The notes under the pieces were generated by a model that was not told where the DNA came from, ran no database searches, and saw only the letters and a list, made by a program, of their open reading frames with translations. This document shows, piece by piece, positions 11,814-35,953 of a DNA stretch of 64,000 bases (position 1 is the stretch's first letter; every line of letters begins with the position of its first letter). The position numbers and the translations under genes are program-made. The stretch lies in assembly GCF_004792695.1 (NCBI RefSeq), contig NZ_SRXU01000001.1, positions 620,001 to 684,000 on the forward strand, written 5' to 3'. The stretch is from Sphingomonas naasensis. GTDB lineage: Bacteria; Pseudomonadota; Alphaproteobacteria; Sphingomonadales; Sphingomonadaceae.

Positions 11814-13472
11814 TCAGGCCCGGTTGGCCGCGCTCAGCACCGCGCGCACCGAAGCAGTCGCGATATCGGCGTCGATCCCGACCCCGAACACCGTTCGCCC
11901 GTCATCGGTGCGGCATTCGACATAGGCGGCGGCCTGCGCGTCGGCGCCGTGGCCGATCGCGTGTTCGCTATAGTCGACCACGTCGAGCCGCGGCCCGGTC
12001 GAGCTGCCGAGCGCATCGATCACGCCGGAGATCAGGCCATTGCCGCGCCCCGAGATCGACTGCTCGACGCCATCGACGGCGATGCGGCCGACGAACACGC
12101 GCTGCCCCGCGGCGCCGGTCTCCTCGTAATCGACCAGCGCGATGCGATCGCCCACGCCCGGCAGATAGACGGCCTCGAACTTCTGGCGGATGTCCGCTGC
12201 ATTGAGCTCGCGGCTGGTTTCGTCAGCCAGCGCCTGGACGTGGCGCGAGAAATCGGCCTGCATCCGCTTCGGCAGCTTGAGTCCACGATCCTGCTCGAGC
12301 ACCCAGGCGACGCCGCCCTTGCCCGATTGCGAATTGACCCGGATCACCGCCTCGTAATCGCGGCCGAGGTCCTTGGGGTCGATCGGCAGATAGGGCACGT
12401 CCCAGATCTGGTCGTTGCGCGCTTCCTGCGCCGCGAAGCCCTTTTTGATCGCGTCCTGGTGGCTGCCCGAAAAGGCCGTGAACACCAGCTCGCCGGCATA
12501 GGGATGCCGCGGGTGCACCGGCAACTGGTTGCAATACTCGACCGTCTGGATGACCTCGTCGATGTCCGAGAAATTGAGCCCCGGATCAACGCCTTGCGTG
12601 TACATGTTGAGCGCCAGCGTCACGAGATCGACATTGCCGGTGCGCTCGCCATTGCCGAACAGGCAGCCTTCGATCCGGTCCGCGCCCGCGAGCAGGCCCA
12701 GCTCCGAGGCCGCCACGCCGGTGCCGCGGTCATTGTGCGTGTGGAGACTGATCACCACCGAGTCACGATTGCGAATGTTGCGCCCGAACCATTCGATCTG
12801 ATCGGCATAGATGTTGGGCGTCGCCGCCTCGACCGTCGCCGGCAGGTTGAGGATCAGCGGCTTCTCGGGCGTCGGGCGGAGGATTTCCATCACCGCCTCG
12901 CAGACCTCGACCGAAAAATCGAGCTCCGCGGTCGAGAAGGTCTCGGGGCTGTACTCGAAATGCCATTCTGTATCGGGCTGCTTCGCCGCCTCGTCGCGCA
13001 GCACCTTTGCACCGGCGATTGCGATGCCCTTGATCTCGTCGCGGCTCATCCCGAATACGATCCGCCGCCACGCGGGCGAGACCGCGTTGTAGAGGTGGAC
13101 GATCGCCTTCTTCGCGCCCTTCAGGCTCTGGAAGCTCGTCTCGATCAGGTCCTGGCGCGACTGGGTGAGCACCTGGACGATCACATCGTCGGGGATCTTG
13201 TCCTGCCGGACCAGCCCCGAGATGAAGTCGAATTCGGTGGCGCCGGCGCTCGGGAAGCCGACCTCGATCTCCTTCACGCCCACTTTCACCAACAGGTCGA
13301 AGAAGCGCTGCTTCTTCTCGCCGTCCATCGGGTCGATCAGCGCCTGGTTGCCGTCGCGCATGTCGGTCGAGAGCCAGCGCGGCGGCCTGGTGATGGTACG
13401 ATTGGGCCATTGCCGGTCGGGGAGATCGACCTGCGGGAAGGGACGGTATTTTACGCTTGGATCGCGGAGCAT
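11814..13472 (-). CDS. leuA: 2-isopropylmalate synthase (long form)
   Basis: A 552-residue enzyme that condenses acetyl-CoA with 2-oxoisovalerate, the committed step of leucine synthesis. The catalytic TIM barrel has [11 protein letters not shown] (about 36-46) and the metal motif [13 protein letters not shown]-terminal LeuA dimer domain, the site of leucine feedback, follows. The N-terminus [18 protein letters not shown] is typical of the LeuA2 type. The ATG at 13472 has AAGAGG eight bases upstream, and that site lies at the edge of the third segment of the proposed attenuator. The P-loop NTPase gene follows it. Confidence 0.97.
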
Positions 13473-13583
13473 GGGCTTCGCCTCTTAAGGGTACGGGCGC
13501 GCGCATAGCGCGGCCTCGGGCTGGCAGGAAGGCTTGGTTTGACCCTTAGGGACGTGCGCGCGCGGCGGTTCGGCCCCTAAGGG
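13473..13583 (-). promoter_or_regulatory. Proposed leucine translational attenuator of leuA
   Basis: Read on the minus strand, three related segments occur: S1 CCCTTAGGG (13583-13575, spanning the leader-peptide stop), S2 CCCTAAGGGT (13551-13542) and S3 ACCCTTAAG (13492-13484, touching the leuA SD AAGAGG at 13486-13481). S1:S2 pair over 9 bp and S2:S3 over 7 bp (TAAGGGT/ACCCTTA), so the pairings exclude each other. A GC-rich hairpin (about 13496-13515) sits between S2 and S3. No U tract follows, favouring translational control over transcriptional. The mechanism is inferred. Confidence 0.65.
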
Positions 13584-13621
13584 CGAATAAGTCGCAGGCC
13601 AAGGCGCAGTGCGGTCGTCAC
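13577..13621 (-). CDS. leuL: Leucine leader peptide (14 residues)
   Basis: A short frame from GTG 13621 to TAG 13577 encodes MTTALRLGLRLIRP, with Leu at positions 5, 7, 9 and 11 (codons CTG, CTT, CTG, CTT). Leu is 4 of 14 residues immediately upstream of the committed leucine-pathway gene. The stop codon lies inside attenuator segment S1. AAGGAAGGG precedes the GTG, but the best promoter places the transcript start at the GTG itself, as in leaderless trpL of Sinorhizobium. The symbol is given by analogy with leuL; the sequence is not homologous to enterobacterial leuL. Confidence 0.65.
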   Translation of the reverse strand: MTTALRLGLRLIRP

Positions 13622-13627
13622 CCCTTC

Positions 13628-13656
13628 CTTATGGAAGAGGCGCGCGCTTTTGTCCA
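13628..13656 (-). promoter_or_regulatory. Candidate leuL-leuA promoter
   Basis: On the minus strand, TGGACA (13656-13651; one mismatch to TTGACA) and CATAAG (13633-13628) are separated by 17 bases. Transcription would begin near 13621, the first base of the leader-peptide GTG. Confidence 0.5.
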
Positions 13657-13677
13657 CCGTCTGGCGTGATCCGCCGG

Positions 13678-13911
13678 CTATTCGGCGGTATTGGCCGGCG
13701 CTTCGGCATCGACGGCATTCTCCGCCACCGCCGCATTTTCGTCCGCCGTCGTCTCGGCCTCGGCCTCGGGGGTCGGCGTTTCGCTGGGCTTCGGGCTGGG
13801 CGTGGCGACGATCTCGGCCATCGGCGGCGGATCGGAATAATTGGTGCCGGTGGTCCCGCCCCCGCCGCATCCGCCCAGCGCCAACAATCCTGCCACGATC
13901 ACCAACCGCAT
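13678..13911 (-). CDS. Small predicted lipoprotein
   Basis: A 77-residue protein with a short hydrophobic leader and the lipobox LGGC (Cys15), followed by Gly-rich and then Pro/Glu/Ala/Thr-rich low-complexity sequence (PSPKPSETPTPEAEAE). This resembles an extended spacer anchored in a membrane rather than an enzyme. It is upstream of the leuA leader in the same direction, but the leader has its own promoter candidate. Function unknown. Confidence 0.6.
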   Translation of the reverse strand: MRLVIVAGLLALGGCGGGGTTGTNYSDPPPMAEIVATPSPKPSETPTPEAEAETTADENAAVAENAVDAEAPANTAE

Positions 13912-19769: not shown

Positions 19770-19872
19770 TCGCACTTGCAACATAACCCGCTGCGGTGCA
19801 GAAAGATCGGGCCTTTCAGGCATCCTCTCCTAAAACTTTCAAACGGCCGTCCTCCTGGGCGGCCTTTTTTTT
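19770..19872 (+). ncRNA. Candidate small RNA, possibly suhB/mmgR-like
   Basis: A plus-strand Rho-independent terminator (stem GGCCGTCC/GGGCGGCC at 19845-19864, then eight T) ends a region with no plus-strand gene. Upstream lie a possible hairpin (GAAAG/CTTTC, 19801-19817), an unpaired CATCCTCTCC and TAAAACTTTCAA. The CCTCCT stretch runs into the terminator loop. Exposed CCUCC motifs and ACUUUCAA before a GC terminator resemble the alphaproteobacterial suhB/mmgR (alpha-r8) sRNAs. Length would be about 100 nt. The family name is a guess; the terminator and lack of a gene are seen directly. Confidence 0.6.
19845..19872 (+). terminator. Rho-independent terminator of the sRNA
   Basis: An 8-bp stem with one G-U pair, a TCCT loop and eight T residues on the plus strand. 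It is the clearest intrinsic terminator in the window. Confidence 0.85.
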
Positions 19873-19877
19873 GCCCT

Positions 19878-20006
19878 CGATCCTCCCCCGCCAGGGGGAG
19901 GTGGCATGCGAAGCATGACGGAGGGGGCGGAAGCACGCTGGCTGGTGGATCGCCCACCTCCCCCTCCGCCGCCTTCGGCGACACCTCCCCCTTGCGGGGG
20001 AGGATT
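19878..20006. repeat. Long palindromic intergenic repeat (family B)
   Basis: The outer arms GATCCTCCCCC...GGGGGAGGTGG and CACCTCCCCC...GGGGGAGGAT enclose ACGGAGGGGG and CCCCCTCCG segments. With the sRNA it fills the 323-base gene-free stretch 19686-20008. Confidence 0.8.
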
Positions 20007-35720: not shown

Positions 35721-35953
35721 GCGCGCCGGCGAAGAATTGTAACGAAACATTGCTGGCCCGCGCCGGCCATTGAATCCGCCGGGCCCAGCCCCTAGATTCG
35801 AGACTGCGGGACCGGGCCCCTCTGGCGGCGGCTTCACCTGAAGCCCCGTGATGTCGGACCGCATCGAGCTAGCTCGGTGCAGGTTTGGTGGCTGCCCCCT
35901 CCTCCCTCACCGAAGAACCGGCTCGATCGATGTAACTGTCGATGGAGTGGCAA

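Follow-up and report, generated by a model that had tools for sequence, protein, structure and literature searches.

A candidate leucine-sensing leader ahead of leuA in Sphingomonas naasensis and its relatives

The leuA leader and its surroundings

The window, by which we mean the whole 64,000-nt stretch of Sphingomonas naasensis DNA analysed here (NZ_SRXU01000001.1), carries leuA and its leader on the minus strand. The leuA product is a yeast-type isopropylmalate synthase, matching TIGR00970 at 813 bits against a cut-off of 697. The features that matter for the argument are as follows.

11814..13472, minus strand: leuA, 2-isopropylmalate synthase of the yeast type, ATG at 13472 (TIGR00970, NF002991)
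13480..13492, minus strand: S3, ACCCTTAAGAGGC, the S3 of an earlier note extended across the Shine-Dalgarno (from comparison within the window's group)
13481..13486, minus strand: leuA Shine-Dalgarno AAGAGG (from the sequence)
13500..13512, minus strand: small GC-rich hairpin, a stem round TAT, between S2 and S3; it recurs in the window's group
13542..13553, minus strand: S2, GTCCCTAAGGGT, pairing with S1 and, within the window's group, with S3 as well (cognate and shuffle tests)
13573..13584, minus strand: S1, GCCCTTAGGGGC, spanning the final leader codons and the stop (S1:S2 cognate tests)
13577..13621, minus strand: leader open reading frame, MTTALRLGLRLIRP, predicted to be leaderless; GTG at 13621-13619, stop TAG at 13579-13577
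13588..13594, minus strand: heptamer CGACTTA (codons CGA CTT A..), rare codons, strongly conserved
13601..13606, minus strand: CGCCTT within the Leu codons, a possible weak partner of GAGGCG at 13484-13479 (a rival off arm), from the sequence
13628..13656, minus strand: predicted promoter, TGGACA 13656-13651 (-35-like), 17 nt, CATAAG 13633-13628 (-10-like), with a start expected near 13621

The earlier note on this DNA had proposed a Leu-rich leader peptide followed by three RNA segments, and the parts it described are there. The frame runs from GTG 13621 to TAG 13577 with four leucines in seven residues; they are the only leucines of the 14-residue peptide and all fall within residues 5-11. 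S1, S2 and S3 were found on the minus strand where the note placed them, its shorter S3, ACCCTTAAG, being 13492-13484. The S1:S2 pairing, given there as 9 bp, is longer than claimed, with 12 pairs of which two are G.U. S1:S2 and S2:S3 exclude each other because both use S2.

The leader is probably leaderless, judging from sequence, because a TGGAC box sits 35-40 nt before the leader start. This spacing holds in 86 of 104 unique leaders, taking the in-frame start nearest to 37 nt and allowing 28-46 nt; the remaining 18 have no such box. In the window the promoter-like box predicts a transcript start at the leader start codon, not downstream of 13577, and a strict sigma-70 scan found no promoter at the leader. 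Leaderless leaders of this kind have been described: trpL of Sinorhizobium is reported to be leaderless (PMC10117765), and leuA of Streptomyces lividans has a leaderless Leu leader, LeuL1, and no terminator (PMC8079986).

The remark that no U tract follows was also correct. A scan of 13400-13750 returned 0 terminator-like sites where shuffles averaged 0.7, and no T run follows S2. This bears on the idea that control is transcriptional, either because Rho can reach the RNA after uncoupling beyond the leader or because S1:S2 is itself a pause site or terminator. Translation attenuation can feed Rho termination (PMC12121999), and L079 and L068 each have an RLL-type leader that carries a T run and a GC-rich hairpin; in L068 it lies upstream of the leuA leader. 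Besides the missing terminator, however, this explanation would leave the complementarity to the ribosome site idle, and we think it quite improbable.

An AAA_28 P-loop NTPase (11806-11264, minus strand) begins 7 nt after leuA, and the earlier note had expected it to share the control of the leader. Conservation does not support this. No homolog was found at E 1e-3 in 80 leuA loci, the best 80 of a longer match list (76 of them with at least 800 nt beyond leuA), nor behind leuA in 3 close relatives; at a looser threshold the best match (E 0.008) was upstream of leuA in L046, and one just after leuA in L020 had E 0.15. Shared control would be peculiar to this genome, since no homolog was found behind leuA in these relatives.

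No Rfam family reaches its gathering score over the leader. The lone match at E<=10 (E 5.3) is on the opposite strand and was taken as chance. Elsewhere in the window Rfam matches terC RNA (RF03067) at 35804-35866 and the suhB/mmgR sRNA (RF00519) at 19804-19879, both on the plus strand.

Conservation of the leader

The folding energy of the window leader is ordinary (z -0.84, with 35 of 200 shuffles as good), so the case for a leader element is comparative. The earlier note had named conservation of the Leu-rich peptide upstream of sphingomonad leuA as a test, and such conservation is borne out: among the same 80 relatives, the core CGACTTA lies in an open frame within 260 nt upstream of leuA in 76, the other four being L068, L074, L078 and L079. 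As a control, only 3 of 1512 other 260-nt windows from these loci contain it. A longer core pattern, CGACTTANNCGCCCNTNGG, is present in 146 of 199 genomes of the family and in 72 of 91 genera, once per genome, the count covering the pattern anywhere in a genome; reversed, the pattern is found in 2 of 199. The window's own genome has one site of the longer pattern, and it stands before leuA.

The leader is also found beyond the family. Class-wide, 44 of 144 genomes have a yeast-type leuA above the cut-off. The core lies no more than 260 nt upstream of leuA in 31 of 47 class-wide loci and the exact core is absent in 16, a set that excludes the window's own genome and includes four loci below the cut-off and two sphingomonads. 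A covariance model, R1, was built on 15 alphaproteobacterial leaders, all from outside the window's family, and within the 64 kb it scores the window leader itself highest (13606-13520, 18.0 bits, E 0.012; the next match scores 12.4 bits). At E<0.05 R1 matches four of the 16 class-wide loci without the exact core (L085, L083, L082 and L096), and it also matches L068, which lacks the core among the first 80 loci, and the Sinorhizobium leader L132. In sphingomonads most of the peptides finish with LRL-I/T/S-RP; outside that group LRLIGGRRA or something like it is a frequent ending. Across 104 leaders the Leu fraction is 0.29 and the mean length 14.2.

Conservation of this kind could have other causes. 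The conserved block might serve mRNA stability or constitutive translation without any sensing of leucine, and the ordinary folding energy of the window leader is compatible with that. The Leu fraction of the 104 leaders and the single site in the window's genome, placed before leuA, argue against it, and we regard this as the least probable of the explanations considered here. Alternatively a factor might recognise the leader peptide or the RNA, with CGACTTA as its binding motif, in which case translation of the leader would matter little. We know of no factor that recognises a CGACTTA leader. The heptamer is conserved at the nucleotide level and its codons are rare (in four genes of the window CTT is 3 of 194 Leu codons and CGA 3 of 156 Arg codons), as a binding motif might be. 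Mutations in the leuA leader of Streptomyces coelicolor reportedly behave unlike classical attenuation (cited in PMC1262725). The heptamer nevertheless lies in frame within a Leu-rich reading frame and at a fixed distance from the promoter-like box, and we consider recognition by a factor highly improbable.

Two observations about the core stand apart. CGACTTA is strongly kept in leuA leaders across the Alphaproteobacteria, and base pairing fails to account for the heptamer in all leaders. A second core-like CGACTT occurs farther upstream of leuA in L068, L070, L085, L089, L091, L112, L114, L122 and L125, as if the leaders were in tandem; in several of these loci a GC-rich hairpin comes after the first CGACTT, in L068 together with a T run, which resembles an independent transcriptional attenuator.

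The S1:S2 helix and the partner of the leuA start

We compared the best gapless helix between a leader's own segments with helices between swapped partners, using 5000 swaps. The sphingomonad set holds 52 non-redundant leaders of 72, 7 non-sphingomonad loci having been dropped. The class-wide set holds 30 non-sphingomonad alphaproteobacterial leaders of 37, where the 7 dropped had far or other-type cores or were near-duplicates. Predicting duplexes over long segments with interior loops allowed proved too permissive (cognate -22.0 versus mixed -19.6, z -6.5, with long patchy duplexes), and gapless helices were used instead. The S1:S2 pairing claimed by the earlier note is clearly upheld: S1 against the region holding S2 gives z -10.37 in the 52 sphingomonads and z -7.72 in the 30 others, with 0 of 5000 swaps as good in both. 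The control, promoter region against leuA start, gives z -0.47 (1586/5000) and z 1.65 respectively. Of 77 minimum free energy folds of single leaders, 74 have 10 or more pairs opening in S1 and 62 have 10 or more leader:start pairs, although such folds cannot be trusted around the start. For 13 Sphingobium-type leaders RNAalifold gives only S1:S2 and a short inner stem.

The second helix is more difficult. In the window's group, A1, S3 resembles S1: its consensus is CCCTT-G-AGAGGC, complementary to the S2 consensus GYCYCTAAGGG. The closer relatives in A1 came from genus searches; its membership is 17 rows by rule in the shuffled-start test (with L069, L139 and L162) and 14 hand-listed rows in the register and accessibility tests. 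Across the 14 leaders the six S2:S3 pairs that cover the Shine-Dalgarno survive in 79 of 84 cells and slid registers reach 19-53 of 84, an advantage that is partly due to the register being taken from the consensus. The window itself has five of these six pairs and, past a one-base bulge, all five of AAGGG, with one mismatch; its nearest relative, L137, has lost two of the AAGGG pairs. Against dinucleotide-shuffled leuA starts, S2 pairs better at p<0.05 in 9 of 17 A1 leaders, 0 of 9 in subgroup A2, 0 of 10 in A3, 1 of 6 in A4 and 4 of 62 others, and for the window p is 0.010. When S1 is masked, as a ribosome at the stop would mask it, the real S2 leaves the leuA start less accessible than a shuffled one does in 13 of 14 A1 leaders (0.41 versus 0.53, Wilcoxon 0.00018, a value that overstates independence because the rows are kin). 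The window is among the 13, at 0.50 versus 0.59.

The earlier note's claim that S2:S3 covers the leuA Shine-Dalgarno is therefore supported within A1, by 79 of 84 cells and 13 of 14 leaders, and not supported beyond it. In the 52 sphingomonads S2 pairs its own leuA start no better than swapped ones (z -0.10, 2285/5000), in the 30 other alphaproteobacterial leaders z is 2.02, and outside A1 the real S2 hides the masked-S1 start better than a shuffled one in only 19 of 48 leaders. In the folding predictions, mutually exclusive helices with one over the Shine-Dalgarno are found in A1 and are weak in the window itself: with S1 masked, the mean probability that the window's leuA start pairs with S2 is only 0.19, and its predicted accessibility departs from the model (0.45 with no ribosome, 0.33 with an early stall, 0.50 with the ribosome at the stop). 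RNAalifold on A1 gives S1:S2 and the side hairpin and no S2:S3, the sole pair changed on both sides being in that hairpin, which occupies consensus columns 147-163 and has the double change in 4 of 14 sequences. In a quick tree of leuA built on 52 hand-picked rows of 111 unique ones, A1 does not form one branch and needs 3 changes: it splits into a set of 6 rows, a set of 7 rows and L153. The S2:S3 arm is therefore either ancestral to a wider set and lost in some lineages or gained repeatedly.

The most serious competing explanation is that the Leu-codon stretch pairs with the leuA ribosome-binding site, making a base stem over S1:S2 that a stalled ribosome would melt, and that the window's S2:S3 is a chance local match. 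In the 52 sphingomonads the Leu-codon stretch does prefer its own leuA start (z -4.31, 0/5000), and the 30 other leaders give a weaker signal (z -1.93, 141/5000). Outside A1 the real leader hides the start more than a shuffled one in 36 of 50 leaders, with a small mean effect (0.449 versus 0.477, p 0.0038), and inside A1 in 8 of 14 (p 0.36); both p values are optimistic because the leaders are related. RNAalifold on the 10 A3 sequences predicts a stem between leader and start in which three pairs have changes in both strands, and the mean probability that the leuA start pairs with the leader is 0.87 in L003, 0.54 in L001 and 0.53 in L020. Such a base stem would be the same as in the actinobacterial LEU element discussed below.

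Against this explanation, the window's group shows no such signal. With shuffled starts none of the 17 A1 leaders reaches p<0.05 and the mean z is -0.09; in the window the pairing comes to just six pairs (CGCCTT:GAGGCG) and is not above shuffles (p 0.357). The support is thin elsewhere too: across 104 leaders, the remaining counts at p<0.05 are 3 of 10 in A3, 0 of 9 in A2, 0 of 6 in A4 and 8 of 62 others. We consider this explanation unlikely for the window. In the sphingomonads outside A1, taken together, it seems from the sequence comparisons that the Leu-codon stretch and not S2 pairs with the leuA start. Some subgroups show neither signal, among them A2 with 0 of 9 for S2 and 0 of 9 for the Leu stretch.

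We believe leuA is probably controlled by leader-peptide attenuation acting on translation. The specific version we somewhat favour for the window is a leaderless, leucine-sensing leader that switches leuA translation through S1:S2 versus S2:S3 over the Shine-Dalgarno. A short Leu-rich frame would start at the predicted 5' end of the leuA transcript. When leucine is scarce the ribosome would stall in the Leu codons and leave S1 free, so that S1:S2 could form and the Shine-Dalgarno would stay open. When leucine is plentiful the ribosome would reach the stop inside S1, releasing S2 to form S2:S3 and close leuA. Two points speak against this off state: the ribosome would soon leave the stop codon, and S1:S2 is stronger than S2:S3.

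Leader and S1:S2 form a scaffold that is kept family-wide, and what hides the ribosome site seems to vary from group to group: S2 in the window's group, and perhaps the Leu-codon stretch in other sphingomonads pooled. Both wirings would have the same sign, with leuA on under leucine shortage. A bolder reading, which we consider somewhat less likely than not, is a whole class of leaderless leucine-sensing translational attenuators with yeast-type leuA across the Alphaproteobacteria, in which CGACUUA sets the stall and the off arm, Leu codons or S2, is interchangeable by rewiring in sphingomonads. Were this so, many environmental bacteria forming a large group would make leucine under a translation-level attenuator that has no terminator, and natural variants would exist with the off arm rewired and the sensor unchanged. 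It would also give a ready comparative system for how an RNA switch changes partners and for why the codon pair CGA-CUU is retained.

Relation to known attenuators

Classical trp, ilv and leu attenuators carry a short leader with end-product codons and use mutually exclusive helices to control transcription. The window leader shares the end-product codons and, by prediction, the exclusive helices with them, but no terminator was found. The erm and cat leaders are translational attenuators of resistance genes for which a drug is the signal. As in those leaders, a ribosome stalled on the leader would free the Shine-Dalgarno from a helix; the difference is that the signal here would be the charging of tRNA rather than a drug. 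Mycobacterial polycysteine short reading frames are likewise leaderless and use amino-acid-specific codons to control downstream translation, according to a paper citing Canestrari 2020 (PMC9031893); the amino acid differs, and the likeness is one of arrangement.

A close parallel is in the Actinobacteria. The earlier note was right that leucine attenuation of leuA is known in other phyla: the LEU element of actinobacterial leuA has a stem between Leu codons and the Shine-Dalgarno and a pseudoknot linking the leader to leuA, and Seliverstov et al. (2005, PMC1262725) proposed that a factor recognises it. Both have a Leu-codon reading frame directly before leuA. Four consecutive Leu codons are described for the Corynebacterium glutamicum leuA leader (PMC4046766), whereas the window has four in seven residues and not a continuous run. 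The stem between Leu run and Shine-Dalgarno is supported in the sphingomonads pooled (z -4.31) and gives no signal in the window's group (0 of 17), which sets S2 instead of the Leu codons against the ribosome site. We believe the window leader works like the LEU element in part, and it is a candidate member of that class only. R1 finds nothing at E<=1 in Nonomuraea L130, the only leuA leader from the Actinobacteria that was compared, which reads LLLS where some alphaproteobacterial leaders read LRLS. In the open-licence PMC texts consulted, we found no account of such a leader for leuA of Alphaproteobacteria; the work of Vitreschak (2004) on attenuators in proteobacteria may cover part of it. 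One record among the loci, L010, is titled Arthrobacter sp. TPD3018 and is probably mislabelled, since its leuA and leader are those of a sphingomonad.
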